Assembly (NCBI RefSeq): GCF_000378405.1
Contig: NZ_KB899636.1
Span: 533,296 to 597,295, forward strand
Direction: 5' to 3'
DNA: 64,000 nucleotides
Source: Succinimonas amylolytica DSM 2873
GTDB taxonomy: Bacteria > Pseudomonadota > Gammaproteobacteria > Enterobacterales > Succinivibrionaceae
Of this stretch, positions 18,875 through 40,750 are shown piece by piece. The first letter of the stretch is position 1, and each line of letters opens with the position of its first letter. Under the pieces are notes generated by a model, which was given only the letters and a program-made list of their open reading frames with translations, was not told where the DNA came from and ran no database searches. The translations under genes were made by a program, and so were the position numbers.

Positions 18875-18924
18875 CCTATTTTAATTGATGGCTGCTGTTG
18901 GTAAACAAACGTGGGGAATATACT

Positions 18925-21900
18925 GTGAATGCATTGCGAGATACTATTATCCGGGAACTTAATAAGCGCATCCTGATTATAGATGGTGCTATGGGGACAA
19001 TGATTCAGGGGTTCGGGCTTACGGAAAATGATTATAGAGGAACCCTTTTTAAAGACAGTCCGGTTGATCTTAAGGGCTGTAATGATGTTCTCTGCCTTAC
19101 ACGTCCCGATATTATAAAAAGCATTCATATGTCATATCTGGATTCCGGAGCGGATATTATTGAGACTGACAGTTTTAATGCTACCCCGGTTCCGTTAGCT
19201 GATTACCGTCTTTCAGAGCTGGCGTATGAGATTAATCGCAGAGCTGCGGAAATTGCGGGAGAGGCTCGGGATTTTTTTAATAAAAAGACTCCAGAAAAAC
19301 CACGTTTTGTGGCAGGCGTACTCGGGCCCACAAACCGTACATGTTCCATATCGCCGGATGTCAATGATCCTGGAGCAAGAAACATCACTTTTGATGAACT
19401 GGAATCTGGCTACGCTGAAGCTGTCAGAGGTCTTATTGATGGCGGAGCTGATCTGATTATTATAGAGACTATTTTTGACACGCTTAATGCCAAGGCGGCC
19501 GTATATGCTGCAGAAGCTGTTTTTGAGGAAAAGAAAACAGTACTGCCGATAATGATTTCCGGAACCATTACCGACGCTTCTGGAAGAACTCTTTCCGGTC
19601 AGACTCCGGAAGCTTTTTACAACAGTTTGAGACATGCCAGTCCGCTTACATTTGGATTTAACTGTGCTTTGGGTCCCGAGGAGTTGACCGGTCATGTGGA
19701 GGAGCTTAATCGTTATTCGGAAACCTATGTGGCGATTTACCCAAATGCAGGGCTGCCAAATGCCTTCGGGGGGTACGATCTGTCACCGGAAGATATGGCA
19801 GCATCTATCAGATGCTGGGCTGAACAGGGACTTGTTAATGTTGTTGGTGGCTGTTGTGGAACCACGCCTGATCATATCAGAGCTATTGCCAATGCCGTTA
19901 ATGGGCTGTCTCCGCGTCCTTTGCCGGCTACACCTGTTCATTCGTGCCGGCTGTCAGGTCTTGAGCCTCTTACAATTGACGAGAACTCGCTTTTTATTAA
20001 CGTCGGTGAGCGTACAAATGTTACTGGAAGTGCCAAGTTTAGACGTCTTATAAAATCCGGAGAATTTGAAGAGGCTGTGGATATTGCACGAATTCAGGTT
20101 GAGAACGGAGCACAGATTATTGATATCAATATGGACGAAGGAATGATTGATGCGGTATCGTCCATGAGAACGTTTCTTAATTTGATAGCGTCTGAACCTG
20201 CCATTGCCAGAGTACCCGTGATGATTGATTCTTCAAAATGGGAGGTTGTTCAGGCCGGATTACGATGTGTTCAGGGGAAGCCGATAGTAAATTCTATTTC
20301 CATGAAAGAAGGAGTGTCTAAATTTCTGGAACATGCCAGGGAAATTCTCCGATTTGGCGCTGCTGCTGTTGTTATGGCCTTTGATGAAAAGGGGCAGGCA
20401 GATACCTATGAGAGAAAGATAGAGATCTGTACCAGAGCTTATCGTTTATTGACTGAAGAAGTAGGATTTCCGCCGGAAGACATAATTTTTGACCCGAATA
20501 TTTTTGCAGTGGCCACTGGCATTCCGGAGCATGACAATTATGCCCGAGATTTTATTGAGGCTGTTAAAACCATAAAGGAAACTCTGCCGTATGCCAAAAT
20601 TTCAGGAGGTGTTTCCAATGTATCATTTTCATTCCGCGGCAATGAGCCTCTGAGACAGGCCATACATACAGTTTTTCTTTACTATGCCATAAGAAACGGT
20701 ATGGACATGGGGATTGTCAATGCCGGTCAGCTGGCTGTATATGATGATATTCCCGAAGAACTCAGAACATTGGTGGAGGCGGTAATTCTTAACACATCTC
20801 CGGACGCTACGGATCATTTGCTTGCTGTGGCTGAAAAATATAAGAACGGCGGTAAATTGAATAATCCCAATGCTCAGGATGAGGATCTTTCCTGGAGAGA
20901 TGATATTCCTGAAAAAAGAATAGAATTCTCGCTGGTAAAGGGAATAGACAAGTTTATCGAAGAAGATACCGAGGAACTAAGACAAAAGTTGCCCCGTCCG
21001 ATTGATGTGATTGAAGGTCCTTTGATGAATGGCATGAACCTGGTAGGTGATCTGTTCGGAGCCGGTAAGATGTTTTTGCCCCAGGTTGTTAAATCTGCCC
21101 GGGTCATGAAAAAGGCTGTGGCATGTTTGGAACCATTTATTCGGTCAGAACAGAAGTCGGTGCGTTCCAACGGAAAGATTGTCATGGCTACTGTAAAAGG
21201 TGATGTTCATGATATCGGCAAGAATATTGTGTCAGTTGTTTTGCAGTGCAATAACTATGAAATTATAGATTTAGGTGTGATGGTTCCGTGTCAGGACATC
21301 ATTAATGTTGCTATAAGAGAGAAAGCAGATATTATTGGGCTTTCTGGGCTTATTACTCCTTCCCTGGATGAAATGGTTCATGTGGTTAGGGAATTGGAAA
21401 AGCAGGGGCTTCATATTCCGGTGATGATTGGCGGAGCTACTACTTCAAAAGCTCATACAGCAGTGAAACTGGAGCATGAATATTCTTCTCCTGTGGTTTA
21501 TGTTGCAAATGCCAGCAGGGCGGTTACTGTAGCTCAGTCCCTATTATCCGCGGATCTCAGACCGGCCTATCTTAAGAAACTTAGGGAAGAGTATGCCTTT
21601 GAAAGACATCTTCATGAGCTGAAATATGCCAGGATGGAGACGGTGTCTTTTGAAGAAGCTGAGCACAGGGCTTTTTGTCCGGATTTTTCCAGATCTAAGC
21701 CGGCGTTTCCTTTGTTTACAGGTATTAAAATTCTGGAACTGAAGTTGAGTGCTATAAGACCGTTAATATGGTGGCAGGGATTTTTTAATCTTTGGGAATA
21801 TCGTAAGGATTATCGTGAGCTTTTGTCTCATCCGGAACAGAATCCTTCTGCAGTAAAGCTTTATGAAGAAGCCAATGCTCTTCTGGACGAACTGGAAAAT

Positions 21901-22611
21901 CAGCAGGATTTTCGGATAAAGGCTGTATTCGGTATATTCCCGGCCGAGCGTTCTGGTAGAAACACGGTAACTGTTCATACGGAAGACGGAGATCGGATAT
22001 TTAACTTTTTGCGTTCCCAGACAGTTGGAAAAGGAGAAAAGCTGCAGAACCCGTGCCTTGCCGATTTTATTGATACTGTTGATGATGCCATGGGTATTTT
22101 TGCCGTGAATGCAGGTGCAGAGGATCTACTGAATAAGTATCGGGCGGAGAATGATATTTATACCGGATTGCTGTTGCAATCGCTTACTGACAGATTGGCT
22201 GAGGCAGGAGCCTCTTACCTGCATTATCTGATACAGTCAAAATACTGGGGCTATTCCCAGGAATCATCAGATCCGGAAGATATTTTTCTGGAGAAGTCTC
22301 CGGGAATCCGTCCGGCTCCGGGATATCCATCTTGTCCGGATCATCATGAAAAACAGCTTATCTGGGATATTCTGCATCCTGATACTGCAATCGGGCTAAA
22401 ACTTACCGAAAGCTTTATGACACTTCCGGTAAGTTCGGTAACTGCTTATGTTTTTGGAAACAGCGAAGCTGAATATATAACTGTGAGCGGAGTAGGCAGA
22501 GATCAGCTGGAAGATTACAGCAGACGTACTGGCAGAAATGTTGCGATCTTGGAAAAAAACCTTGCTTCCTGTTTGGGATATATCCCCGACAGCCTGAAGA
22601 TATCTGACTGA
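18925..22611 (+). CDS. metH: Cobalamin-dependent methionine synthase
   Basis: Transfers the methyl group of 5-methyltetrahydrofolate through methylcobalamin to homocysteine. I use the GTG at 18925 (GGGG about eight bases upstream; 1228 residues) rather than the TTG at 18898. With this start the zinc cysteines fall at 247, 310 and 311 ([15 protein letters not shown]), the E. coli numbers. Modules follow in order: homocysteine/zinc domain (to about 330), pterin-binding domain ([14 protein letters not shown] onward), cobalamin cap and Rossmann domain with the cobalt-ligand motif DVHDIGKN (about 755-765), and the AdoMet reactivation domain with [14 protein letters not shown]. All modules are complete. 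Its cofactor supply links it to btuB at 4.8 kb. Confidence 0.97.
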
Positions 22612-22706: not shown

Positions 22707-23294
22707 TCAGCAGCCGTCGGTAATAACGCGGATCTGCAATCCTTTCAGGTTGCCGTCAAATTTATAGTATGTCGGATCCTGAAAGCATGGTGTATTGTAG
22801 AAAATATAGCACATGTTTTTATATGTCCACTCATCCTCGGATTGGAAGGCATCCGGTATGGGCAATCCCTTCTGGGTTACTAGTATCTGCGTGGCGTCTT
22901 TGTTCCATTCTTTATATACATACAGCCATTTGGTATTTGGCTCGGGTTTGTCATCTTCCTTTAACCCGATATTGAAATCAAGAGCCCTGATAATCCCGTC
23001 AGGTGTGGCATCTGGAAAACCGCATCTCATTTTGATTTTTTCATCATCAGTACACGATTGGCCTTCTCCTTTGGGGCAGAAATAGCCATCGGGATCGATG
23101 TGTCCTTTTACAGCAGCTTTGGCATTAACAAGATCCGCAGTGTATCTCATGGTTCGAACCATAGATTTCAGAATATCGATACGAGCCGCGGTATGGCTAC
23201 CGGCAACAGCTTCTGGGTGCAGAATAAAAACAGAAGACAGAACCGTGAGTGCTGCGATATTTTTCAGCGAAAAAAACTTGTTGCATAACCCCAT
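22707..23294 (-). CDS. Secreted MSHA-pilin-like protein with Sec signal peptide
   Basis: A 195-residue protein from the ATG at 23294 (AGGAA nine bases upstream; a TTG at 23318 is less likely). Residues 1-32 form a signal peptide (basic start, NIAALTVLSSVFIL, then AVAG-S). The mature part opens with an amphipathic helix (IDILKSMVRTMRYTADLVNAKAAVKG) that, from memory, closely resembles the segment after the N-terminal helix of MshA-type pilins. A CGFPDATPDGI segment resembles the pilin GYPxATxxGI region. At least six cysteines follow, including CYIFYNTPC and a C-terminal GC. No prepilin peptidase motif (G-FTLxE) is present. It is transcribed alone, 5 kb from the MSHA cluster. The role is unknown. 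Confidence 0.65.
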   Translation of the reverse strand: MGLCNKFFSLKNIAALTVLSSVFILHPEAVAGSHTAARIDILKSMVRTMRYTADLVNAKAAVKGHIDPDGYFCPKGEGQSCTDDEKIKMRCGFPDATPDGIIRALDFNIGLKEDDKPEPNTKWLYVYKEWNKDATQILVTQKGLPIPDAFQSEDEWTYKNMCYIFYNTPCFQDPTYYKFDGNLKGLQIRVITDGC

Positions 23295-23469
23295 AGCCAG
23301 GCATTCCTTTTGAAACAATAAAACAGTTCCGATTCATGTTTAATACTGAAATCCTCTTGTCAAAATTTTATTTTTTTGCAGGAATCATATCCATGTTTTA
23401 GTATCTGAATTATGACTAAGGCACCGTTTTTATCGTGATGATATTTGTTTTGCAAATACTTTCTGATTA

Positions 23470-23500
23470 TAAAAAAAACCGCCGGTGCATTGACGGCGGT
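23470..23500 (-). terminator. Terminator of the DUF2750 gene
   Basis: On the minus strand the stem ACCGCC / GGCGGT is followed by eight T residues (an A-run at 23471-23478 on the + strand). It lies directly after the stop codon of the gene at 23524. Confidence 0.85.
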
Positions 23501-23523: not shown

Positions 23524-23931
23524 TTATTTTGCGGAATCGTAATCGAAATCTTTTTGAAGATCGGCATCGGTTACTATGTTGCAATCATTTTCTCCAACCG
23601 GGAATACTGCGTATTCGATGCCGGAAGCGCGGAGCTGGGGTAGCCAGGTTTCAAGAAATACTGCCAGACTTATTGGCTGCGGATGATAGCCGCTGGCGAT
23701 TTCATTGTGTTCAGCATAGTTGAGAGCGTAACGTTCATGACTCCAGACAGGCAGCACGCTGATAGTTTCCTCATTTTCATCGGTTTCCAAAAAGAGGATA
23801 TCGTCTTCCTCTTTTTTTAGCACAAAAATTTCCAGTCCCTTTTTGGCACTTTCCACAAAATAATGATATCGGTACTCGGCATTAAGCTTTAATGCAGCAT
23901 TGTACTGAATGTCGTCCAGTTTGAAAGACAT
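23524..23931 (-). CDS. DUF2750 domain protein
   Basis: A 135-residue acidic cytoplasmic protein. It has the DUF2750 layout: an N-terminal helix (YNAALKLNAEYRYHYFVESAKK), a strand pair (EIFVLKKEEDDILFLE), VLPVWSHERYAL, and a C-terminal ISLAVFLETWLPQLRASGIEYAVFPV segment. The family has no established function. The ATG at 23931 has GAGG upstream. It has its own terminator downstream and is separated from uvrA by only 36 bases, so some read-through from uvrA is possible. Confidence 0.8.
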   Translation of the reverse strand: MSFKLDDIQYNAALKLNAEYRYHYFVESAKKGLEIFVLKKEEDDILFLETDENEETISVLPVWSHERYALNYAEHNEIASGYHPQPISLAVFLETWLPQLRASGIEYAVFPVGENDCNIVTDADLQKDFDYDSAK

Positions 23932-28139: not shown

Positions 28140-29135
28140 ATGTCAAGGAAAAATCAGCCGAATGTGGCTGTCGCCCTGAGAGCGGACGGTGTGTGGTTTC
28201 TTTCCCTGAATCGTGACAAGAAAAAAGCGGATTTTAAGGCCTGCAATTCAACACAGGACTGGATCGTTGCGATAAAGGATCTTTTTGGAAAAAACGGAGT
28301 GCATGCGAAAGATCGGGTTTGTGCTGTACTGGATGTTTCTCTTACCAGTTCAATTCAGCTACCACAGAATGAAACTCTTACTGACGAAGAGCTTCATGGT
28401 ATCGCCATGTACAAGGATCTTGAAGGAGCGGTTGCCGGTAAAATCGGAGATTATACATGGGATTTCTATCAAGCATTTACCAGCAAAACCTCGCACCCTA
28501 TGCTGAATTTTGTGCTTGCCGAGAAGAGACTTATTGCTCTTATATCGGATGTGATTAACAGTATTGCGATACTGGATTCCATTTCTATAAGCACTTTGGC
28601 AATGGCCGATTTTATTTCTTTTTATCAGTATGAAACCGTTAAAAAAAAGGATGCGTCCATTCCTTTACAGTATGTGGAGCAGCTGGCTTTGCTTCTTTAT
28701 ATGGAAAAGGGCAAGGATCTTACGGTGTACGGTGTTTATAACGGTGAACTCTGCTATACACGTGTTATGCGTAATTATCGTGGACTTGAGGGCAATGTTC
28801 TTTTAGGAAACGAGACCGGGCTTCTTGAGCAGCTGGATATGGATCTGCTACGGCTGTGCGATGATTTCTTTACCGCAAGACTCGGGCTTCCGCCGGTAAC
28901 AAAAATGATTATTCTGATGGATACAGATCAGGTGGAGACTATTTCTCAGACACTTGCTGAAAACAGACGTTATGTCGAGGTGATTCCGAGTTCCAAGCAT
29001 CTTTTTAAAAATTCTAAGCCGTCATTTGCAGTGTGCGATGACAAAACTGTTTGTGAGCTATGCGACATCGGGGTGCAATATCTTCCCCTTTACGGAGTTC
29101 TTAAGGGAGGAAGTTTGAAAAGTGCGCAGGAGTAG
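28140..29135 (+). CDS. mshI: MSHA biogenesis protein MshI (PilM-like)
   Basis: First gene of the MSHA (mannose-sensitive haemagglutinin) type IV pilus cluster. The 331-residue protein has the PilM/actin-like layout without a membrane segment, and should sit on the cytoplasmic face with the PilN-like partner encoded next. Conserved-looking strands include VAVALRADGVWFLSL at the start and DLTVYGVYNGELCYTRVMRNY in the middle. Its end overlaps the next gene by 14 bases, indicating translational coupling. The assignment rests on position as much as sequence. Confidence 0.88.
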   Translation: MSRKNQPNVAVALRADGVWFLSLNRDKKKADFKACNSTQDWIVAIKDLFGKNGVHAKDRVCAVLDVSLTSSIQLPQNETLTDEELHGIAMYKDLEGAVAGKIGDYTWDFYQAFTSKTSHPMLNFVLAEKRLIALISDVINSIAILDSISISTLAMADFISFYQYETVKKKDASIPLQYVEQLALLLYMEKGKDLTVYGVYNGELCYTRVMRNYRGLEGNVLLGNETGLLEQLDMDLLRLCDDFFTARLGLPPVTKMIILMDTDQVETISQTLAENRRYVEVIPSSKHLFKNSKPSFAVCDDKTVCELCDIGVQYLPLYGVLKGGSLKSAQE

Positions 29136-29754
29136 ACTTGATTTATACCGTCCGGAATTCCGTCCCAAGAAGGTAATACTGAGTATTGAGCACATGATCA
29201 TTGTCTGGCTTTGTGTGGCCGGTATTATAGCTCTTCTGATTATGAACGCCAGTGAGGAGAACAGGCGTATCAAAAAACAGGAGCAGGAACTTAATGAACA
29301 GCTAAGCGATACTCAGGCGCAGTTGGCGGAGGTTCAGGCCAGAGTGGCGGTACAGCAGCTTGACAAGGTTCTTCAGAAGGAAGTTCAGGATCTGAAGGTT
29401 CTCGTTGACAGCAAGCGAAAGATGTATGAGCTTATCAGTTCCAGTGATAAGCTGAAAAGTCATGGCTATGCCGGTTTTATGTACGGTCTTGCTGAGGTTA
29501 GTTCATCTGATATCAGTGTTACTTCTTTCAGACTTTCAGGGCTTAATGCCAATATATCTGGTATTGCCAGCAGATCAGATTCAGTGCCGCAACTGGTTTC
29601 GCGTTTTGGAGTTAATGAGAATATGAAAGATGTGACCTTTGGTGCTCTCAGGATTTACACCGACAGCGAAACCGGGATACTGCACTTCAGTTTGTCCGAT
29701 GCTGAAGCTGTAGGCGGAAAGGAATCCGAAGATAACGGAGAATCCGAAAAATGA
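29122..29754 (+). CDS. MSHA biogenesis protein, PilN-like (MshI2)
   Basis: A 210-residue bitopic inner-membrane protein: a short cytoplasmic start (RRSRLDLYRPEFRPKK), one membrane helix (MIIVWLCVAGIIALLIM, about residues 25-42), a coiled coil (about 43-100, rich in EQ/KQ), then a periplasmic domain. This is PilN organisation. The YRPEFRPKK motif is likely the MshI/PilM contact, by analogy with the PilN cytoplasmic peptide. The GTG start at 29122 has GGGAGG about 11 bases upstream. It overlaps mshI and mshJ. Confidence 0.82.
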   Translation: MRRSRLDLYRPEFRPKKVILSIEHMIIVWLCVAGIIALLIMNASEENRRIKKQEQELNEQLSDTQAQLAEVQARVAVQQLDKVLQKEVQDLKVLVDSKRKMYELISSSDKLKSHGYAGFMYGLAEVSSSDISVTSFRLSGLNANISGIASRSDSVPQLVSRFGVNENMKDVTFGALRIYTDSETGILHFSLSDAEAVGGKESEDNGESEK

Positions 29755-30383
29755 GCTACAGAGATCTACAGAAAAAGGTAGCTTCCCTTTCAATGCGAGA
29801 GCGGATACTGGTGTGTCTTGTGGGAGTTGCTCTGTTTGTCTTTCCGGGATATCTCTCTTTTGTGGACAGGTATAAAACGGATACCAGAAGAACCCAGGAC
29901 AGCATGGGAGCCAGGGGCGCCGAACTGGCTGAAGTTCAGGAGGAGCTTGCCAAGTGGCAGGGGATGCTTACTCAGAATCCTAATGATGTTCTTCGCAGTG
30001 AAAAAGAGGAGTATCAGAAGATTCTTGCCGAGTTGGATGAAAGTCTCGACAGGGAAACGATGAATCTGATAAGTGCTTCTCAAATGGCGGGAATTCTGAC
30101 AGGGGTGCTGTCCGGGAATTCCTCGGTGAAAATTACAAAAACGGAATCGGTTCCTCCACGGCTTTTGTTTCATAAGGATGATGTGAAGCTGTACCAGCAT
30201 GGAGTGATTATTACTCTGAACGGCAGATACATGGATATCATGAGATATCTTGAAGGTTTAGAAGCCATGAAAACCAGCTTTTTCTGGAAATCGTTCGATT
30301 ACAGGGTAACAAAATATCCGGAAGCGGAAGCGGTTCTGGAAATATACACGCTCAGTATAAATAGGGACTTTATTCGTGGTTAA
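29751..30383 (+). CDS. mshJ: MSHA biogenesis protein MshJ (PilO-like)
   Basis: A 210-residue bitopic membrane protein with an N-terminal cytoplasmic stretch, one helix (ILVCLVGVALFVFPGYLSF, about 20-38), a coiled coil, and a periplasmic ferredoxin-like domain as in PilO. It overlaps the preceding gene by ATGA and the following gene by eight bases. It is predicted to pair with the PilN-like protein in the inner-membrane alignment complex. Confidence 0.86.
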   Translation: MSYRDLQKKVASLSMRERILVCLVGVALFVFPGYLSFVDRYKTDTRRTQDSMGARGAELAEVQEELAKWQGMLTQNPNDVLRSEKEEYQKILAELDESLDRETMNLISASQMAGILTGVLSGNSSVKITKTESVPPRLLFHKDDVKLYQHGVIITLNGRYMDIMRYLEGLEAMKTSFFWKSFDYRVTKYPEAEAVLEIYTLSINRDFIRG

Positions 30384-30723
30384 ATTATCATTGGTATTAA
30401 CAGTGACTGCGTATCTCTGCTTCGGAGCAGCCGAAGCAGGAGTGCTGAGAGATCCAACGACACCTTTGTACGGAACAGTGCAGACTGCGGCCAGTAATAC
30501 AGGAAAGGGCAGTCTGAAGCTACAGGCCATAATGCGGGGAAATGGCAGGGCTCGTGCTGTTATAAGCGGACAGACCTGTTATTTGGGGCAAAAGTGTCAG
30601 GGGTATGTTCTGATATCCTTAACCAAAAGCAGTGCTATCATGATAGCGCCGCAGGGAGATGAAAGACTTGAGTTATCGCTTTATACCTCCGGAAGACGTG
30701 AGACTAAAAATGAAGATAAATAA
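30376..30723 (+). CDS. mshK: MSHA biogenesis protein MshK (PilP-like)
   Basis: A 115-residue secreted protein with a signal peptide (LSLVLTVTAYLCFGAAEAG), followed by the LRDPTTPLYG motif that marks MshK/PilP-type proteins contacting the secretin. The start is GTG at 30376, inside the end of mshJ. No lipobox is seen, so it is probably periplasmic rather than a lipoprotein. It overlaps mshL by 14 bases. Confidence 0.84.
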   Translation: MVKLSLVLTVTAYLCFGAAEAGVLRDPTTPLYGTVQTAASNTGKGSLKLQAIMRGNGRARAVISGQTCYLGQKCQGYVLISLTKSSAIMIAPQGDERLELSLYTSGRRETKNEDK

Positions 30724-32392
30724 ATTCTCGGTTCTGGCGCTGTCCGTGGCGCTGGCTCTAACATCTGGCTGTACCTACAGGCATCCGGCTCCGACTGAAA
30801 TTAAGGAGGAACTGATAAATGCTACCAGGGCTCCCGCAAAGCTTGCGGTGCCGGAAGAGGTTCTCAATGAACTTAATCCTGATCTGCCAGTTCAGAATGA
30901 ATCTTTTGCCGAAGATTCCAAGAGGATAAGCGTGGCGGCAAATGAAGTTCCGGCAGCGGAATTTTTTGCAAGGCTTATGGATAATTCAGGCGCTTCCGTG
31001 GTGGTACATCCGGATGTTTCTGGCACCATTACTGTGAATCTTGACAATGTCACTGTTGATCAGGTTTTTGATGCAGTATACAGAATGTACGGATATCGTG
31101 CTGAAAAGCAGGGTAAAATTTATTTTGTCTACCCTGCCGGAGTTCATACCGAAACCATTCCGGTGGATTATATGCTCCTAACCAGGGAATCCACCACTTC
31201 CGTATCTATCAGCAATAATTCCCTCAGAGACGGAGATTCCAGTTCAGATTCCTCCTCCTCATCAGATTCTTCCTCATCCAACAGTTCTTCTGACAGTGAC
31301 AGTTCCGACAGCTCCAGCGGGGTTTCTTTAAGCACCAATTCCAAGAGCGATTTCTGGACGGAACTGGAAAAGACTCTTGGTAAGATCCTTGGCAGCGGGG
31401 AGGGGCGGGTGGTCAGTGTGAATCCGCAGGCTGCCACGGTGACTGTCAGAGGCATGCCCTCTGAAATTCAAAATGTCCGTGATTACCTTAATCAGACTAA
31501 AAACGCACTCAGAAGACAGGTGGTAATTGAGGCCAAAATACTGGAAGTTCATCTTAATGAAGATTATGCTCAGGGAATTGACTGGAGTCTGATACTGGGT
31601 AATCCGAATTCTCAGTACGTGAAGGGCCTGGGAAACAGCGCTGCCAGCACCAGTCATATAGAAGGGAGCGTGTTTTCTCTTCTGGGAGGTGGCTTTCAGT
31701 TCAGCATGTCAGACAAGCGCTATTCCGTGCTCATTAATCTGCTTCAGACTCAGGGGGATGTTACCACTTTGTCCAGTCCGAGAATAACAGCACTTAATAA
31801 TCAGCGCTCTGTGATGAAGATTGGCAAGGATTCCTACTATCTCACCGATATAAGTACGGATTCCAGTACCTCCAATTCAGATAATAACATTGTTTCCTCG
31901 TCTTTTGATTTTTCGCCTTTCTTCAGTGGTGTGTCATTGGATGTACTGCCTCAGATAAGTGATGACGGCCGGATTTTGATGCATGTTCATCCAGCAGTAA
32001 TCAGTGTTCAGGATGATAATAAGACTATTAATCTTGGAGAAGGCAAGCATATGGAACTGCCTCTGGCTACTTCGGATGTCCGGGAGACCGATACTGTGGT
32101 TGAAGCTCAGTCCGGCGATGTAATTCTGATTGGCGGTCTGATGAGACATGAAAAGGGAACTCAGGAATCAAAGGTCCCAGTGCTTGGAGATATTCCTCTG
32201 GTGGGAGAGCTGTTTAAGAACCGCTCTATCTATGACAACAAGTCGGAACTGGTAATTCTTCTTCGTCCGGTAGTTGTAGGCGGAGATACCTGGAGACAGG
32301 AAATTAAGAGAAGTACTGATCTTCTGGAAAAATGGTATCCAGATAATGCGGAGGATAAGCCGCGGGGCTTTGTAATGCAAGGTACAGACTGA
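30710..32392 (+). CDS. mshL: MSHA outer-membrane secretin MshL
   Basis: Forms the outer-membrane channel for the pilus. I use the ATG at 30710 (560 residues), because it puts a lipoprotein signal with lipobox LTSGC at the N-terminus; the frame opens at 30659 inside mshK. An N0/STN domain (VAANEVPAAEFFARLMDNSGASVVVHPDV) and an N1-like domain are followed by a Ser/Asp tract (about residues 173-205, codons about 31229-31325). Then comes the secretin core (RRQVVIEAKILEVHLN, VLPQISDDGRILMHVHPAV, VPVLGDIPLVGELFK), complete to the C-terminus. The Ser/Asp tract lies in a loop region and may be lineage-specific. Confidence 0.95.
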   Translation: MKINKFSVLALSVALALTSGCTYRHPAPTEIKEELINATRAPAKLAVPEEVLNELNPDLPVQNESFAEDSKRISVAANEVPAAEFFARLMDNSGASVVVHPDVSGTITVNLDNVTVDQVFDAVYRMYGYRAEKQGKIYFVYPAGVHTETIPVDYMLLTRESTTSVSISNNSLRDGDSSSDSSSSSDSSSSNSSSDSDSSDSSSGVSLSTNSKSDFWTELEKTLGKILGSGEGRVVSVNPQAATVTVRGMPSEIQNVRDYLNQTKNALRRQVVIEAKILEVHLNEDYAQGIDWSLILGNPNSQYVKGLGNSAASTSHIEGSVFSLLGGGFQFSMSDKRYSVLINLLQTQGDVTTLSSPRITALNNQRSVMKIGKDSYYLTDISTDSSTSNSDNNIVSSSFDFSPFFSGVSLDVLPQISDDGRILMHVHPAVISVQDDNKTINLGEGKHMELPLATSDVRETDTVVEAQSGDVILIGGLMRHEKGTQESKVPVLGDIPLVGELFKNRSIYDNKSELVILLRPVVVGGDTWRQEIKRSTDLLEKWYPDNAEDKPRGFVMQGTD

Positions 32393-32396
32393 TTTT

Positions 32397-33302
32397 ATGT
32401 ATGAAAAGTTTTTTGGCCTGGAACAGAAGCCCTTTGGACTGACCCCAAATACCAGTCTTTACTTCGGACTTCCTCCTCATGAAGAGGCGGTGCAGGTTCT
32501 TGAAGAGGCTCTTCGCGAAGGAGAGGGGTTTATAAAGATTACCGGTGAAGTGGGAACCGGTAAAACTATGGTTCTGCGGCTTTTTCTTTCTAGGCTGGCC
32601 GACGAGTTTGAACTGGTATATATTCCAAATCCGGTATTGAGTCCTGACGAATTCAAGATTTCCATTGCCAGAGAACTGGATATCAATACGGCGAACTGCA
32701 CTACCCTTTCGCTTAATGACGATATCAACAGAAAGCTTCTTGAAATTCACGCTGCGGGACGGAGGACGGTTCTGGTTATAGATGAGGTTCAGTCTGTGGC
32801 AGAAGATACCCTGGAAGCTATCAGGCTTCTCGGAAATCTTGAAACCGAGCATGACAAGATTATTCAGATAGTTCTTTTTGGTCAACCGGAGTTGGATGAG
32901 ATGCTTGACAAGCAGAATCTCAGACAGCTTCGGCAGAGAATCGCCTTTTCATATCATTTGCGTCCTCTGACTGAAGATGAAACGGAGGCTTATCTTAATT
33001 ATCGCATGCAGAAGTCGGGATATTCCGGAAAGCCGGTGTTCGGCCATCGTTCGTCCAGAGACATATTCAGGTTCAGCGGGGGGATTCCCCGGCTTATAAA
33101 CATTATTGCCAATAAAAGTCTGATGCTGGCATACGGTTATGGGGTGCATGACATTTCGAGTGCCATGGTGCGGGAAGCGGCTCTTGATACTGTAGATGTA
33201 AGGAATAATAAGTCTGTTATGCTGCTGTACATATCGTTAGGAGCTTTCTTACTGCTGGCTGTAATTGGCGGGGTGATACTTTCCAGTGGAGGGTTTGAAT
33301 GA
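32397..33302 (+). CDS. mshM: MSHA biogenesis ATPase MshM (ExeA/GspA-like)
   Basis: A 301-residue AAA ATPase with MYEKFFGLEQKPFGLTP at the N-terminus, as in the ExeA family. It has Walker A GEVGTGKTMVLR, Walker B VLVIDEVQ, and a C-terminal membrane helix (VMLLYISLGAFLLLAVIGGVIL). ExeA-type proteins help place the secretin in the cell wall in Aeromonas, but this one has no peptidoglycan-binding domain after the helix. It overlaps mshN by four bases. Confidence 0.92.
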   Translation: MYEKFFGLEQKPFGLTPNTSLYFGLPPHEEAVQVLEEALREGEGFIKITGEVGTGKTMVLRLFLSRLADEFELVYIPNPVLSPDEFKISIARELDINTANCTTLSLNDDINRKLLEIHAAGRRTVLVIDEVQSVAEDTLEAIRLLGNLETEHDKIIQIVLFGQPELDEMLDKQNLRQLRQRIAFSYHLRPLTEDETEAYLNYRMQKSGYSGKPVFGHRSSRDIFRFSGGIPRLINIIANKSLMLAYGYGVHDISSAMVREAALDTVDVRNNKSVMLLYISLGAFLLLAVIGGVILSSGGFE

Positions 33303-34594
33303 GTGTTATAAATAAAGCCCTTTCCGAGTTGGATAAAAGGGAAAGGGGGGCACAGTACGGGAAGTATGTACCGCCGAAAGAGAAATCTTCTTTTTTCCCG
33401 GCTTTGGCAGGTGCTGGAATTATGGCAGTGGTGGCTTTGACAGGAGTTGCCGGCTATTTTTATTACACCTTCGGAAAGCAGCAAGTTCCTGCTACTGGCA
33501 GCACTGAGGCGGGGCAGACCGCTATTGGTCTTTCAGACGGTACTTCGGTAAGTGTTTCTCCGGGAAGTAATATCTCCAAAGGAGGAGCCGACCAGACTGC
33601 GCAGTCTTCTGAGACTGTAAACGAAGACAGGGGAGCTCCGGCACAAAGCAGCGACAGTGTGGAACTGATGCTTTTGGCTGAAGGCGCAGTTAATCAGGAA
33701 ACCGGCGGAGTTGTTCCGGTTTCTGCTCCTGGAGCTCAGCCCGCTAGAGAAGTCAGTGGAAAGCCGTTGGATTCTTCATTGGCAAAAGATGTGCGTTATC
33801 CCGGAAATGCCTCTGAAAAACGAATTTCTGCTCATTCCGGTGCAGTCCGGACTTCAAAAGTAATTCCGGATGTTTCTGACGGTGTACAGATTGCCGATAT
33901 TGCTTCTCCGGAAATTATAATCGATGACAATGCTCCGGAGAATTTTGTGATTGTTGAGGAACCGCGGGTACAGGCAAGAAATTCTCCTTCTATGAGGGTG
34001 AAGCAGAAAAAACTAACACCAAAGGAAGAGGCGGATCTTCTCAGAAAGGAGGCAGAAAACTCTCTTCTTCGAGGGGACAATACCGGAGCAATCAAGTCCT
34101 ACGAGGTGCTTCTTAAAAAGAATCCCGGAGATAGCAGGACCCGAGAAAAGCTGGCCAGCCTTTATTATGGAAAAGGGAGATCTCTTGATGCCATTAAGAC
34201 TCTGGATCGGGGTATTATTCTGGATCCTGCCCATTATGACTACCGTCTTTATCTGGCACGTATTTATTCAGCTCAGGGGCAGGATTCTCAGGCTATTAAG
34301 GTACTGAGACAGGGAAATCCTCCGGCTCGCGGTAACATGGATTATTATGCGACTTTAGCCGGGCTGGCTCGGAAGAATAACGATTATCCTGAAGCGATAA
34401 GAGCTTATCAGAAGCTGGCCAGTGCCGAAAAACAGGATGGTAAATGGTACCTGGGACTGGCTATTTCGCTGGAGGAAACCGGAAAGGTCCGAGAAGCTCT
34501 TGATGCATACCGTAAGGCATCGGCTCTTTATCTTAGTGCCCAGTCCCGTAGCTTTGCGGAGCAGAGAATTGGTGTGCTGGGAGGAAAAAAATGA
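33299..34594 (+). CDS. mshN: MSHA biogenesis protein MshN (TPR protein)
   Basis: 431 residues: a short cytoplasmic start beginning MSVINKALSELDKRE, a typical MshN/GspB-like opening, one membrane helix (ALAGAGIMAVVALTGVAGYFYY, about 38-58), a long low-complexity periplasmic spacer to about residue 235, and tetratricopeptide repeats to the end (AENSLLRGDNTGAIKSYEVLL and following). A periplasmic scaffold role beside MshM and MshL is inferred from the family. Confidence 0.9.
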   Translation: MSVINKALSELDKRERGAQYGKYVPPKEKSSFFPALAGAGIMAVVALTGVAGYFYYTFGKQQVPATGSTEAGQTAIGLSDGTSVSVSPGSNISKGGADQTAQSSETVNEDRGAPAQSSDSVELMLLAEGAVNQETGGVVPVSAPGAQPAREVSGKPLDSSLAKDVRYPGNASEKRISAHSGAVRTSKVIPDVSDGVQIADIASPEIIIDDNAPENFVIVEEPRVQARNSPSMRVKQKKLTPKEEADLLRKEAENSLLRGDNTGAIKSYEVLLKKNPGDSRTREKLASLYYGKGRSLDAIKTLDRGIILDPAHYDYRLYLARIYSAQGQDSQAIKVLRQGNPPARGNMDYYATLAGLARKNNDYPEAIRAYQKLASAEKQDGKWYLGLAISLEETGKVREALDAYRKASALYLSAQSRSFAEQRIGVLGGKK

Positions 34595-36351
34595 CAGAAA
34601 GCAAACCTCAGCAGAAACGACTTAGAATCGGAGATGTGCTGGTACAGTCCGGAGTTATCACCGATGAGGATGTGACCAAGGCTCTGGCCTACTCCCGTGC
34701 CCACAGCATGAAACTGGGACAGGCCGTGGTGGCAATGAAACTGGCTTCCGAGAGCGATATCTGCAAGGCTTTGGGGCAACAGCTGCATATGACAGTGTTT
34801 GACGACCTGTCCAAGATTAATATCGATGCCAGTACAGTACAGCTCTTGCCGGAAGCCATGGCCAGAACTCTCCATGCTTTGGCCATTTCCCGCAACACCA
34901 ATCCAATTTCAGGAAGTGATGTTATTACGGTGGCGCTTTCGGATCCCCTGGACTACCCGGCACGTGACAAAATATCTGATCGTCTTAATCAGTACGATGT
35001 TGATTTTGTCATTTCTCCGGAGGCTGAGGTCATCCGCTGTATTTCCATGTTTTACAGGAATACGGATGCCATAGCCAAGTTTGCGGATCAGCTGCAGACA
35101 CAGGTTACTAAGAACCCTTTTGAAATAAATACCATTGAAACCCTCGGAGAGGAGGGCGGTTCAGATGCTGCGGTGGTTAATCTTTTGCGTTCGGTGTTTG
35201 AGGACGCCATTAATTCCGGAGCTTCGGATATTCATATAGAGCCTGATGCGAATGTTCTGCGTATTCGACAAAGAATTGACGGAAGCCTTCGGGAACAGGT
35301 TCTCAATAATGTAGAAATTGCCCCGGCGATATCCCTTCGTCTTAAGCTTATGTCAGGCCTGGACATTTCTGAAAAGCGTCTGCCTCAGGATGGGCGTTTT
35401 CCGGTGGTTATTTCTGGCAAGAATATTGACGTGCGTTTGTCCACATTGCCGACACAGTATGGCGAATCAATGGTAATGCGACTTCTGAATCAGTCAAACG
35501 GCCTTTTGTCATTGGATAAAACCGGAATGCCGGTAGACATTCTAAATCGTTTTCGCATTCAGTTGCATCGTCCTCATGGAATGGTTCTGGTTACGGGCCC
35601 TACAGGATCCGGTAAAACCACCACTCTTTACGGCTCTCTCAATGAACTTAACGATCCCTCGGTGAAAATTATTACTGCTGAGGATCCTGTGGAATATCGT
35701 CTTCCCAGGATCACTCAGGTTCAGGTAAATGAAAAAATTCATTTGGATTTCAATACAGTGCTTCGTTCTTGTCTTAGACAGGATCCGGATGTAATTCTGG
35801 TCGGGGAAATGAGAGATCAGGAAACCTGCGAGATTGGCCTTCGCGGGGCAATGACTGGTCATCTGGTGCTGTCAACACTGCATACTAACGATGCTATTTC
35901 CAGTACGTTACGCCTTATGGATATGGGGGCTCCGGGATATCTTGTGGCCGGATCCCTGAGAGCTGTTTTGGCGCAGAGACTGGTGCGTAGAATTTGTCCC
36001 AAATGCAGTGCGGAGTGTCCGCCAGATCCGGTACAGATGAACTTTATTCAGGATGCTTTGGGAATTCCGGTGGAGCAGCAGAAACAAGAGCATTTCCGGA
36101 TGGGAAATCAGGGGCGGGGCTGTCAGTACTGCAATTTTACAGGATATAAAGGACGTGTAGGTGTTTTTGAACTTCTGGTGCTTGATCAGAATATGATGGA
36201 TGCTCTGAGACGCAATGATAATGAAGGTTTTGCCATTGCTGCCAGAGAATCGGAGAATTATAAGCCTCTGGCAATGATGGCCTATGAATTTGCACAGCAG
36301 GGACTTACTTCCATTGAAGAGGTTATGAAGCTTGCGGAGATCAATAAATAA
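34591..36351 (+). CDS. mshE: MSHA extension ATPase MshE
   Basis: Hexameric GspE/PilB-type ATPase powering pilus extension; 586 residues. The N-terminal MshEN domain (about 1-150) carries RIGDVLVQSGVI and LGQAVVAM, the c-di-GMP-binding motif shape known from Vibrio MshE (RLGxxL in Vibrio, RIG here). Walker A is GPTGSGKTTTLYG, the Asp box TAEDPVEYRL, and Walker B DVILVGEMRD. The zinc tetracysteine region is CPKCSAEC with CQYC. It is complete and directly followed by mshG. Confidence 0.96.
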   Translation: MTESKPQQKRLRIGDVLVQSGVITDEDVTKALAYSRAHSMKLGQAVVAMKLASESDICKALGQQLHMTVFDDLSKINIDASTVQLLPEAMARTLHALAISRNTNPISGSDVITVALSDPLDYPARDKISDRLNQYDVDFVISPEAEVIRCISMFYRNTDAIAKFADQLQTQVTKNPFEINTIETLGEEGGSDAAVVNLLRSVFEDAINSGASDIHIEPDANVLRIRQRIDGSLREQVLNNVEIAPAISLRLKLMSGLDISEKRLPQDGRFPVVISGKNIDVRLSTLPTQYGESMVMRLLNQSNGLLSLDKTGMPVDILNRFRIQLHRPHGMVLVTGPTGSGKTTTLYGSLNELNDPSVKIITAEDPVEYRLPRITQVQVNEKIHLDFNTVLRSCLRQDPDVILVGEMRDQETCEIGLRGAMTGHLVLSTLHTNDAISSTLRLMDMGAPGYLVAGSLRAVLAQRLVRRICPKCSAECPPDPVQMNFIQDALGIPVEQQKQEHFRMGNQGRGCQYCNFTGYKGRVGVFELLVLDQNMMDALRRNDNEGFAIAARESENYKPLAMMAYEFAQQGLTSIEEVMKLAEINK

Positions 36352-37580
36352 TGCCGTTGTACAGTTATAAGGCCAAGGATGCTGGTGGTGGCTACAAGCT
36401 CGGCAAGGTGGAGGCTCAGACAGAGGCGGATGCCATAGACGAGGTATCACGCATGGGGCTGATGCCTATTTCCATCGAGGAGTCCCGGGGGTTTGTCGGT
36501 GCTAGCTTCAGCCTTGATTTAAAGGAACTTCTTCGCGGGAGAGTCGGACTGTCGGAGCTGGTGATGCTGTGCCGTCAGATGTATTCTCTGTCAAAGGCCG
36601 GAGTTCCTATAATCAGGGCGATCGGAGGATTGGCAGATTCGACTGATCATTACGGCCTTAAAAAGTCTTTGACAGCTCTGAACCGGGATCTGATAGGAGG
36701 CCGTTCTCTGACTCAGGCGATGAGCGATCAGCCAAAAATCTACAATTCTCTTTTTGTTTCCATGATTAATGTAGGTGAAAACACCGGACGTCTTGAGGAC
36801 GTTTTCTACCAACTGGCGGAATATTTCAGTCTGGAGCAGGAAACACGAAAGCGCATTTCCAGTGCCATGCGTTATCCCTTTATGGTTATTATCTTTATAG
36901 GAGTGGCCATCACCATCCTGAATATTTGGGTGATTCCGGTTTTTAGCACCATGTTTGCAAAATTCGGTGTAGAACTGCCGCTGACTACTAGGATTCTTAT
37001 AGGCACTTCGGCTTTTTTTGTCAGTTACTGGCCTTATATGCTTGGAATTGTAGTGGCGCTTCCGTTTGTGATCCGTCGGGCGCTACGGGTGAAAAGCGTG
37101 CGTTATCAGTGGGATCGTCTGAAGCTCCGAATTCCGGTTATCGGTTCTATTCTGCGCCGGGCTCTTCTGGGCCGTTTTTGCCGTAGCTTTTCACTGATGC
37201 TGCGAGCAGGTGTGCAGCTTAATATGGCTCTCACGCTGGTGGCCAGTGCTATTGATAACAGATTCCTGGAAGAGCGGGTAAATGTCATGCGACGGGAAAT
37301 CGAGCACGGAAACTCACTTGCTACAGTTGCTGTGCAGAGCAACATGTTTACTCCCCTGGTGCTTCAGATGTTTGCGGTAGGGGATGAAACCGGCCGCGTA
37401 GACGAGCTTCTTCTGGAGGCGGCAACCCATTACGAAAGGGAGGTTGATTATGATCTGAAGGCTCTGACTTCCAAGATTGAACCCCTTCTGCTGGTTTTTG
37501 TGGCCTTGCTAGTGGGGGTTTTGGCATTGGGTATCTTTACACCTATGTGGGATATGTATGGAGCCATGCAGGGTAAATAG
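36351..37580 (+). CDS. mshG: MSHA inner-membrane platform protein MshG
   Basis: PilC/GspF-type platform, 409 residues, with two T2SF cytoplasmic domains and three membrane helices (MVIIFIGVAITILNIWVIPVF near 183-203, SAFFVSYWPYMLGIVVALPFV near 222, LLLVFVALLVGVLALGIFTPMW near 383-405). The ATG starts at the stop codon of mshE. The opening MPLYSYKAKDAGG is typical. Confidence 0.95.
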   Translation: MPLYSYKAKDAGGGYKLGKVEAQTEADAIDEVSRMGLMPISIEESRGFVGASFSLDLKELLRGRVGLSELVMLCRQMYSLSKAGVPIIRAIGGLADSTDHYGLKKSLTALNRDLIGGRSLTQAMSDQPKIYNSLFVSMINVGENTGRLEDVFYQLAEYFSLEQETRKRISSAMRYPFMVIIFIGVAITILNIWVIPVFSTMFAKFGVELPLTTRILIGTSAFFVSYWPYMLGIVVALPFVIRRALRVKSVRYQWDRLKLRIPVIGSILRRALLGRFCRSFSLMLRAGVQLNMALTLVASAIDNRFLEERVNVMRREIEHGNSLATVAVQSNMFTPLVLQMFAVGDETGRVDELLLEAATHYEREVDYDLKALTSKIEPLLLVFVALLVGVLALGIFTPMWDMYGAMQGK

Positions 37581-37582
37581 TT

Positions 37583-38116
37583 ATGAACAGGGAGGATAAC
37601 AGTAACGAAAAACTGTTGAAAATCTGGCAGTTTCTCTGGGTCTGTTCGGTTATTGTTCTGGTTGTCTGTATTTTTGTGAGCAATTTTATCCTCCCGCAGT
37701 CGGATCGGACATTGGAAACCTCCATGGATACTGTGGCTCATAATTTCGGAGAACGTCTGGCGCTTCTTCACAGCCTGTGGCTCCAGGACGGAAAAAGAAA
37801 GAACATGAAGGTTCCTTCATGGGTAAATCTCTATGCTGGGGCCGATGAAAGCCGATTGGGCTTTAATCCCGACAGAGTGGTGTATGTCATGAGTCCGCAA
37901 GGCTGGCCGATGGATGTCAGGGGTATTTCCCGAGATGGGCAGGAACCCTGCAAGCTGATTTGGCTTGGCCTGTTGGGACGTGATGAGTCTCTTTTTATCG
38001 CTAAGGTTATGGTGAGGTCAAACCCTGACAAAAATGAGTGTGTGTTCACTACAAACGTATCCGGATTCGTTTATAATTATTCTGACGGTTCTGTAAATAA
38101 ATTCTTAGCCGAATAA
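37583..38116 (+). CDS. mshF: MSHA biogenesis protein MshF
   Basis: A 177-residue bitopic protein with one N-terminal helix (LWVCSVIVLVVCIFVSNFIL, about 17-37) and a periplasmic domain (ETSMDTVAHNFGERLALLHSLWLQDGK, VYVMSPQGWPMDV). Position between mshG and the pilin gene, size and topology match MshF. Its biochemical role is unknown. Confidence 0.82.
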   Translation: MNREDNSNEKLLKIWQFLWVCSVIVLVVCIFVSNFILPQSDRTLETSMDTVAHNFGERLALLHSLWLQDGKRKNMKVPSWVNLYAGADESRLGFNPDRVVYVMSPQGWPMDVRGISRDGQEPCKLIWLGLLGRDESLFIAKVMVRSNPDKNECVFTTNVSGFVYNYSDGSVNKFLAE

Positions 38117-38134
38117 GCTTGGTAGGGTATTGTT

Positions 38135-38833
38135 ATGATTGGAAATCGAACCAGAGGTTTTACTTTAATTGAACTGATTATTGTAATTGTTATTCTCGGT
38201 ATTCTGGCTGCTACGGCTCTGCCGCGTTTTCTTGATGTGACTGAAGAGGCCAAAAAAGCTAGCGTCGAGGGGATTGCCGGCAATTTTGCCACCGGTATCC
38301 TTTTGGTTCGCGCCCAGTGGGAAGCCAAAGGTCGGCAGAAGGTAAACAATATCAACAGCACCCTTTATGACGGAACCAGATTCTATCTGACCACTCCTAC
38401 AAACACTAAAATCAATGACGGTACCATGAGTCCGGGATATCCGATTATGGCGACCACCGCAGGAGCAACCAAGCCTTCCACTATTACTGATGAAAGTGCC
38501 AGTGGCTTTGCTGTTCCCAATAATCTGGCAAACTGCATTAATATCTGGGAGAAGATGCTTCAGAATCCGCCCCGTATTACCGGAGATATCAATGCTCTTA
38601 ACAGTGATGACATTGACTATAAGTATTTTGTAACCTACAGTACCGGTGCAGTGGACGGATCTACGGTATCTGGGTACGGGATCTGTCGTTATTATCTGGT
38701 GCTTTCCCTGGAGAAGGGGGACACTGGTTCCTACAAGGCTCCGGACGCTGATAACCATGATCGCTACATGAGCTTCAGCTATATTCCCTCTCTTGGGCTG
38801 GTGCAGCCTCATATAAACAGCAGTGCCAATTAG
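38135..38833 (+). CDS. mshA: MSHA pilin (MshA/MshB-type prepilin)
   Basis: A class IV prepilin with a short basic leader (MIGNRTRG), cleavage site G-FTLIEL with Glu5, and the hydrophobic N-terminal helix IIVIVILGILAATALPRFLD, then ASVEGIAGNFATGILLVRAQWEAKG as in MSHA pilins. 232 residues is long for MshA (about 180). Cysteines near NCINIW and YGICRYY could form the C-terminal disulfide loop. Vibrio and Shewanella have two genes (mshB, mshA) here; only one exists in this locus, so it must be the major pilin or a fused role. Symbol chosen by function; it could equally be called mshB. Confidence 0.88.
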   Translation: MIGNRTRGFTLIELIIVIVILGILAATALPRFLDVTEEAKKASVEGIAGNFATGILLVRAQWEAKGRQKVNNINSTLYDGTRFYLTTPTNTKINDGTMSPGYPIMATTAGATKPSTITDESASGFAVPNNLANCINIWEKMLQNPPRITGDINALNSDDIDYKYFVTYSTGAVDGSTVSGYGICRYYLVLSLEKGDTGSYKAPDADNHDRYMSFSYIPSLGLVQPHINSSAN

Positions 38834-38841
38834 AGGAATCT

Positions 38842-39309
38842 ATGAGGCGGAGTTCCGGTTTTACTCTGGTTGAACTGGTGACAGTGCTGGTTCTTATCGG
38901 AATCCTGGCAGTGGCAGCCACCGCGAAGCTGACAGCTGCCAACGGTCAGGAGTACGTTTCATGCCGGGAAGCCGCAACCCGTCTGGCTACAGTTCAGTCC
39001 ATCAATATGAATCAGGGCAGCAGTCCTGATGTGAGGTTTTTTATCAACAGAGATGGTGTCTTTGGATACTGCATCGGGCTGGACTGCTCCAACACCCCGG
39101 CTACGTGGCATGGTATCGGAGGGGGGGATCGGGTCGTGGCAGATACCGATGGCTATATTGGTTTTGACTATCTCGGAAAAGTTCATCAGGGCAATACAAC
39201 CCTGGGGCTGAAGGAGGCTGGATACTATCAGTTTTCTTTCAGACCGTCTCAGGGGGCGGGCAGCTGTGCGGTTCGTGTATATCCGGAGGGAGGGATCGCA
39301 TGGAAGTAG
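38842..39309 (+). CDS. mshC: MSHA minor pilin MshC
   Basis: 155-residue prepilin with leader MRRSSG, then FTLVELVTVLVLIGILAVAATAKL. Cysteines in VSCREA, YCIGLDC and GSCAVRV may form disulfides. It sits directly after the pilin gene, the place of mshC. Overlaps mshD by ten bases. Confidence 0.88.
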   Translation: MRRSSGFTLVELVTVLVLIGILAVAATAKLTAANGQEYVSCREAATRLATVQSINMNQGSSPDVRFFINRDGVFGYCIGLDCSNTPATWHGIGGGDRVVADTDGYIGFDYLGKVHQGNTTLGLKEAGYYQFSFRPSQGAGSCAVRVYPEGGIAWK

Positions 39310-39971
39310 CAGCCAAGGGCTTTACTCTCGTTGAACTGGTTATCGGCATTGTGGTTATGGGAATTGCTGTGGCCGGTATTACCAGTATTCTCTTTTCATT
39401 TGCCGTGTCATCGGCCAATCCTGTATTTGAGGTGAAATCCTCGCTTCTTGCGGAAAGGGTTTTTCGGGAAATTCTAGCGCAGGAGTACGATCAGAATTCT
39501 GACCATCATGGAGGCGTATGCCGTTGTGGAGAGACTGTTGTTTCCGGAGGGGAACGGCTTTGTGATATTGGATCCTGTACCGCCGAGAGTGGCTACGGTC
39601 CTGATACCCCTGAGGAAAGAGCAGCGCAGTATTCATCTGTTTTTAATGATATTGATGATTATGATACTTCTAGGTTATGTGCCGTTAAAACAGGTAGCGT
39701 TGCTTGTCAGATGTATGCTAGTCCTGACTTCTGCAACGGGCTTGATTCCTGCAGTGGGGTACCGGCAGATTTTTTCCTGGGAAAAAACTACAGTGAGTGG
39801 AAGGCATCAGTTCAGAAGGATTTGCCCGATGCCGGATATGCCGGATATTACGTAACAGTTCGGGTTTCTCAGGTCGCTGTAGGAGGTTTTGCCTTTAAAG
39901 AGATTCGGGCCAGTGTCTTGGATCCCCGGGGCGGGGTATATCGCCTGTCGGCATTGCGGGGGAATTACTGA
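39300..39971 (+). CDS. mshD: MSHA minor pilin MshD
   Basis: 223-residue prepilin: leader MEVAAKG, then FTLVELVIGIVVMGIAVAGITSILFSF. The globular part is cysteine-rich (CRCGETV, RLCDIGSCT, RLCAV, ACQMY, DFCNGLDSCSG). The start is inside the end of mshC, and the stop TGA overlaps the ATG of mshO. Confidence 0.87.
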   Translation: MEVAAKGFTLVELVIGIVVMGIAVAGITSILFSFAVSSANPVFEVKSSLLAERVFREILAQEYDQNSDHHGGVCRCGETVVSGGERLCDIGSCTAESGYGPDTPEERAAQYSSVFNDIDDYDTSRLCAVKTGSVACQMYASPDFCNGLDSCSGVPADFFLGKNYSEWKASVQKDLPDAGYAGYYVTVRVSQVAVGGFAFKEIRASVLDPRGGVYRLSALRGNY

Positions 39972-40750
39972 TGCGCGGTAAATCGGGCTTCACTCTTATA
40001 GAAATTGTAATTGTCATGGTGATAATGGGTATTACCGTGGTCAGTGTGGCGGGATTTGTATCCCAGGGGGCACTGCTGATGGCAGAGTCCTCTGCACGGG
40101 TTGCGCTGGCACAGTTTACCAGAAATGTCACAGAAAGAATTTCGCGGGAAGTCCAGGGAAGCATTCCTTATCAGGTTTCCATATCCAAAGACGAACATGA
40201 TAACGGAGTTTTAAGCTTCAGGGTTCCTCTTTATGTTTTAAGGGTGTATCGAGTTTCGGAGGATTCGGCTTCCGCTCTGAAATATGCCTATGTTTTTCCC
40301 TCGAAAGGGACCGGTTTTACATGCGAGAGTATCGCTTCTTCCCACCAGGACCGGGTGAGTATTCTCGGGATACTGAAAAGTGACGGTTCTCTTTCTGAGA
40401 AAAAGATTTCCGGGGGAGACTGTGCCGCATCAGGAAATTTTATCAGGTTCGATATTTCCGGTCTGGATGTGGATTCCGGGCTGAATAGGCTTTACCTGAT
40501 GAATGACTGGAGTCAGGTGTCTTATTCTATTGGTTCTGAAGGATATCTTTTGTATCATCGGGGTGCCTCTGTTGCCACTATCAATGCAGATGGAAGGAAC
40601 AAGGTTAAGAAGCTTCTTTTTGAGGTTCCAGGCAGTTCCGGACAGCAGAATGCTTCGCATCTTAACAGTGTTTTTATGGCTCTTTTCAGTGAAACTGACA
40701 GCGAAACAATGAGCGTGGAGCAGCTTCTGGAGGCGGAAAATGTACTATAA
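39971..40750 (+). CDS. mshO: MSHA minor pilin MshO
   Basis: 259-residue prepilin (GspJ/PilW-like position): leader MRGKSG, then FTLIEIVIVMVIMGITVVSVAGFV, with Glu at position 5 of the mature protein. It is predicted to be part of the pilus-tip priming complex with MshC, MshD and MshP. Overlaps mshP by 11 bases. Confidence 0.87.
   Translation: MRGKSGFTLIEIVIVMVIMGITVVSVAGFVSQGALLMAESSARVALAQFTRNVTERISREVQGSIPYQVSISKDEHDNGVLSFRVPLYVLRVYRVSEDSASALKYAYVFPSKGTGFTCESIASSHQDRVSILGILKSDGSLSEKKISGGDCAASGNFIRFDISGLDVDSGLNRLYLMNDWSQVSYSIGSEGYLLYHRGASVATINADGRNKVKKLLFEVPGSSGQQNASHLNSVFMALFSETDSETMSVEQLLEAENVL

Follow-up and report, generated by a model that had tools for sequence, protein, structure and literature searches.

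A conserved MshA-type pilin head with a predicted Sec-type leader in place of the prepilin leader

Type IV pilins are defined by an N-terminal helix and a prepilin leader, and laboratories truncate them near residue ~26 to obtain soluble protein. In Geobacter, GSU1497/PilA-C (Spc) is a separately exported pilin head (PMC5174107) that forms a pilus together with PilA-N (PMC12954529); a chaperone role has been argued as well (PMC8844916). In Neisseria, the soluble head known as S-pilin arises by proteolysis, and a role of its own has not been conclusively established (PMC4877100). No paper describing a Sec-exported pilin-head family was found in open-licence full text.

The gene described here lies in a 64,000-nucleotide stretch of the genome of the rumen bacterium Succinimonas amylolytica DSM 2873, hereafter the window. 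A first-pass annotation had read its product as the globular domain of a pilin that leaves the cytoplasm through a Sec signal, and this central reading was supported by the fold search, the homologues, and the co-occurrence with MSHA-type MshE. The frame, start, and stop that it gave were confirmed on the sequence. Alignment A2, used below, comprises 23 rows: 17 pilins and six Sec-form members. The parts of the gene are as follows.

22707..23294, minus strand: CDS of the MshA-type pilin head, predicted to be Sec-exported; 195 aa plus stop, ATG at 23294, stop at 22707-22709
23202..23294, minus strand: signal peptide predicted to be of the Sec/SPase I type, residues 1-31, MGLCNKFFSLKNIAALTVLSSVFILHPEAVA, cut before GS; 6/6 orthologues show the charge, the hydrophobic core, and small residues at positions -3 and -1; aligns over pilin leader and alpha1-N
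23109..23201, minus strand: amphipathic helix at the N terminus of the mature protein, residues 32-62, counterpart of pilin alpha1-C (alignment A2; AlphaFold)
22710..23108, minus strand: globular alpha/beta pilin head, residues 63-195 (alignment, model, fold match)
23304..23309, minus strand: Shine-Dalgarno-like AAGGAA, 9 nt ahead of the ATG, read from the sequence

Searching the organism's own genome with the window protein returned three further loci, matching residues 37-195 or part of them (E 5e-14, 1e-4, and 4e-4); each of them encodes an ordinary MshA-like pilin whose leader reads GFTLIEL. The protein was not recognised by Pfam or NCBIfam, and a single-sequence search of the PDB yielded nothing useful either. 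Homologue searches pointed to no other named family, in keeping with the initial remark that no described family was known for it. A profile of the six Sec-type proteins, the orthologues being 89, 74, and 50-52% identical to the window protein, recovered MshA-type pilins across many families of the order, and every locus read among the matches outside the Sec family contained a prepilin motif. As these matches mostly began in the hydrophobic N terminus and were possibly inflated, the search was redone with the mature part alone. The same pilins were recovered, including MshA-type prepilins of other families. Head-to-head hhalign scored 99.9% against the family's pilins; for MshA heads from other families it gave 98.9% (E 1e-17), and for the reversed control 0.3%.

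Using 23 homologues, AlphaFold produced a long helix leading into a head rich in beta structure, with a mean pLDDT of 84 and values mostly >90 in the head. The helix spans residues 27-62, with pLDDT >90 at residues 41-60, and aligns with alpha1-C in A2; the suggestion that the mature amphipathic helix is the part of a pilin that follows its hydrophobic half thus held. Similarly, the GFPDATPDGI segment, flagged as pilin-like at first reading, aligns with the pilin segment GYPxATxxGI. A fold search of the PDB with the model, a check that the first-pass annotation had proposed, returned a single match below 0.001, the Shewanella MshA pilus 9lab (E 1.7e-5). With the six Sec-type sequences only, the alignment was too shallow for a usable model (pLDDT 36), and the fold match therefore supports the sequence homology without being independent evidence; a Sec-form-only profile reached 9lab in the PDB at E 0.18 only. 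The six cysteines (73, 81, 91, 162, 170, and 195) are invariant among the six orthologues. Two of these, C162 and C195, are the C-terminal cysteine pair of MshA-type pilins and are invariant over 23/23 rows of A2. Sequence, tree, model, and fold all identify the homologous alpha1-C and alpha/beta head of an MshA-type pilin.

The leader of the window protein has the classic make-up of a Sec/SPase I signal, with 2-4 positive charges, a hydrophobic core, and an AVA|GS cut after residue 31, which places the mature start at residue 32 and not, as first annotated, at residue 33. The cleavage site was assessed by composition and conservation. The layout is common to 6/6 orthologues (30-32 residues, positive charges, hydrophobic core), and the residues preceding the mature start are AVA, AVA, ASA, VSA, ASA, and ALA. 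A G-FTLxE site, noted early on as missing from the window protein, was sought in all six Sec-form members and found in none. Prepilin/N_methyl models matched 17/23 proteins of A2, which is its number of true pilins; the window protein was not matched, and by count the other five Sec members cannot have been matched either. The paralogous pilins hardly vary in their leader and alpha1-N, G|FTLIELVVVIVILGILAATAAPKFM. The mature start of the Sec form aligns with pilin residue ~26, and the mature protein does not contain the hydrophobic alpha1-N (residues 1 to ~25), a predicted cleavable signal peptide being there instead. The sequences are compatible with alpha1-N having been remodelled by point changes or replaced, and either may have occurred. 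Genes of the signal peptidase I family are present in the genome, and we infer that the protein is cleaved by the genome's own signal peptidase I, is soluble, and contains disulfides.

Relative to MshA-type type IVa pilins (Shewanella oneidensis MshA, 9lab; paralogues L002, L003, and L004; and the sister pilin L010), the Sec form is homologous in head and alpha1-C, by sequence and fold, and its six cysteines recur in L010. However, it is without the class III leader, G-FTLxE, and alpha1-N, and has a predicted Sec/SPase I leader instead. Like Geobacter GSU1497/PilA-C, it is a separately encoded pilin head with a removable signal peptide, predicted in this case. GSU1497, however, is an all-beta head encoded beside the head-less PilA-N, both being in the pilus, whereas the Sec form keeps alpha1-C, has no short pilin in its genome, and arose within the MshA-type pilins. 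Like Neisseria S-pilin, it would be a soluble pilin head without the N-terminal hydrophobic half. S-pilin results from PilE proteolysis after residue 39; by contrast, the Sec form is the product of a dedicated, stand-alone gene with its own signal peptide, and not of proteolysis of a major pilin, and its mature start is equivalent to residue ~26. The Sec family resembles both PilA-C and S-pilin and belongs to neither. These two nearest precedents do not appear in the first-pass annotation.

The family was surveyed in 57 genomes, 16 with and 41 without MSHA-type MshE. The Sec form was found in six species of two genera (3/3 in the window genus and 3/5 in a second genus of the family), and a further 368 genomes of the class gave no match at E 1e-6. 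It had been asked at first reading whether genomes with the gene also hold the MSHA locus; indeed, the MSHA-type MshE ATPase is present in every carrier. The Sec form thus occurs in 6/16 MshE genomes and 0/41 without MshE, figures that come from two genera and are not phylogenetically independent; MshE-bearing genomes mostly hold other GspE/PilB-type ATPases as well. Viral contigs and plasmids contained no relatives, and an origin in a mobile element was therefore rejected.

In a tree of 56 heads, from which leader columns were left out, the six Sec forms are one clade (100/99) nested among pilins. Its sister (100/97) is L010, a normal six-cysteine pilin with GFTLVEL, so the data are explained by a single switch in which a pilin became a Sec-exported protein. 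The Sec form is no isolated oddity; it represents a conserved family that arose one time from a normal pilin paralogue. The mature parts are under strong purifying selection, with a dN/dS of about 0.03-0.1 in within-genus pairs where estimable (dS is high and the figures are rough). The signal peptides change faster, with dN above that of the mature part; this reverses the pattern of pilins, in which the N terminus is the most conserved part. In matched species pairs, with the pilin pairs taken as orthologues from the tree, Sec heads are more similar than paralogous pilin heads (92% vs 71% and 81% vs 61%). This slower evolution suggests that the head has a conserved partner and is not a diversifying surface.

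The surroundings of the gene contain the following features; the names of neighbouring genes were read from their sequences, except for the Pfam-tested ones.

18898-22611, plus strand: metH, one flank of the pilin-head gene
23365..23393, minus strand: sigma-70-like promoter TGGATA-17-TAAAAT, a consensus match only, the number of such matches in the region being not above chance
23389..23417, minus strand: conserved upstream element AGTCATAANTCAGANANNAAAACNTGGAT, 29 nt, conserved in three species
23478..23497, minus strand: intrinsic terminator behind the upstream DUF2750 gene, with a stem conserved in the alignment of upstream regions
23524-23931, minus strand: DUF2750 gene, the other flank, between uvrA and the pilin-head gene
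28140-41366, plus strand: MSHA operon in mshI to mshP order, followed by mreB; MshE has an MshEN domain, and MshL is the secretin

Past DUF2750 lie uvrA, ssb, and then the MSHA operon from 28140. The order metH, gene, uvrA, ssb, MSHA is syntenic in the window genus, all three species of which have ~5 kb between the gene and the MSHA operon. Members of the second genus carry the gene elsewhere, where it does not adjoin MSHA. A DUF2750 gene is also present at locus L030, in the same position as in the window. The MSHA operon of the window contains just one MshA/MshB-like pilin (38135-38833), other MshA-like pilins being scattered over other contigs. Approximately 5 kb past the right end of the window, a T2SS gene cluster in GspC to GspK order begins (L101, C1:597000-612000).

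The two congeneric orthologues have comparable promoter hexamers, identically spaced. Lying between the terminator behind DUF2750 and its own coding start, the promoter-like sequence makes it probable that the pilin-head gene is monocistronic. The 29-nt element is a candidate activator site: it has a single copy in each genome, located before the pilin-head gene. A regulatory element common to this gene and the MSHA/pilin genes was sought and none was found.

Taken as a whole, the explanation we favour, and consider probable, is that an MshA-type pilin paralogue has become a Sec-exported soluble head, perhaps an accessory of the cell's own pili. The pilin-derived fold, the lost prepilin site, the Sec-type leader, and the conserved coding are strongly supported; the steps of export, cleavage, and non-polymerisation are proposed from sequence, phylogeny, and the model. 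The paralogue would have lost its class III prepilin leader and hydrophobic alpha1-N half and either gained a cleavable Sec signal peptide or remodelled one from the leader and alpha1-N. Sec would translocate the protein and signal peptidase I would cut after AVA, releasing a soluble pilin head that keeps alpha1-C and is probably disulfide-bonded. Having no Gly-1, Glu5, or alpha1-N, this product would be neither a substrate of prepilin peptidase nor a polymerised subunit; without alpha1-N, filament assembly is expected to fail. As to function, we tentatively place first a periplasmic accessory or regulator whose head contacts pilins, complexes of minor pilins, or the secretin within the cell's own pilus machinery. 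That it acts on these pili from inside the periplasm is only weakly inferred, from the co-occurrence with MshE and, in the window genus, the nearby MSHA operon. Somewhat more speculatively, the dedicated soluble head could regulate pilus assembly, the former pilin serving, through contacts between heads, as a periplasmic inhibitor, chaperone, or tip factor for MSHA or other type IV pili.

The head might instead leave the cell, which we rank next and consider a little less likely than the periplasmic role: after Sec transport to the periplasm, the T2SS or a pilus secretin would release it as an adhesin, receptor-binding protein, or pilus-phage decoy. The T2SS exports folded Sec substrates, and the T2SS cluster lies near the window. 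Neisseria, moreover, releases soluble S-pilin (PMC4877100). However, the head of the Sec form changes at a slower rate than the MshA-like pilins in the same genomes, which would not be expected of a decoy tracking pilins. Much less probable is an uncleaved N terminus anchoring the protein in the inner membrane, as alpha1-N does, with a possible function as a minor pilin. The hydrophobic core aligns with alpha1-N, and in the model a helix at 7-25 continues into 27-62, with low confidence before residue 30; but no member has a G-FTLxE-type site, small residues occupy -3 and -1 in 6/6, and the N terminus of the Sec form drifts whereas pilin alpha1-N is nearly invariant.

A split pilin as in Geobacter, in which a separately exported head pairs with a short head-less pilin as the pilus subunit, has its precedent in GSU1497/PilA-C, whose signal peptide is removable and which makes up T4P jointly with PilA-N (PMC5174107, PMC12954529). 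For the present gene this arrangement is very improbable and was rejected: all 23 N_methyl matches in the genome, which is ~97% complete, are in open frames no shorter than 128 aa (the shortest is 128 aa), leaving no head-less pilin; no pilin gene adjoins the pilin-head gene; and alpha1-C is kept, unlike in the beta-only GSU1497 family. The notion of a silent donor cassette or a decaying pilin copy, prompted by the pilin relatives with different heads in the genome, is scarcely credible and was likewise rejected. The mature part has the low within-genus dN/dS given above, the frame is intact in six species, and the gene has its own conserved upstream region. Further, its longest DNA match to the genome's own pilins is 10-11 bp, equal to that of shuffles, whereas two true pilins share 53 bp.

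In the explanation that we favour, a soluble accessory derived from a pilin, evolution would have retained the pilin head and exchanged its export route, and selection held the product in two genera. The Sec form would be a natural counterpart of the pilins that laboratories truncate to make them soluble. It would also offer a simple setting in which to ask whether pili are regulated by free pilin heads, a question that S-pilin and PilA-C raise as well. Such pilin-derived proteins escape searches keyed on the N_methyl motif.

The surveyed pilins provided two further observations. In the window's own genome, the scattered MshA-like pilins at L003:1384-2025 and L004:1387-2013 carry their identical 53-bp stretch across the alpha1-N region, which suggests that they were duplicated recently or have undergone gene conversion. 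In the second genus, MshA-like pilins occur near bamB/der-like and hisS-like genes at L034:5495-6097, L035:5662-6276, and L036:58-651. The L034 head resembles the Sec family, whereas those of L035 and L036 do not, and heads may therefore have been exchanged at this bamB/der-like, hisS-like site.
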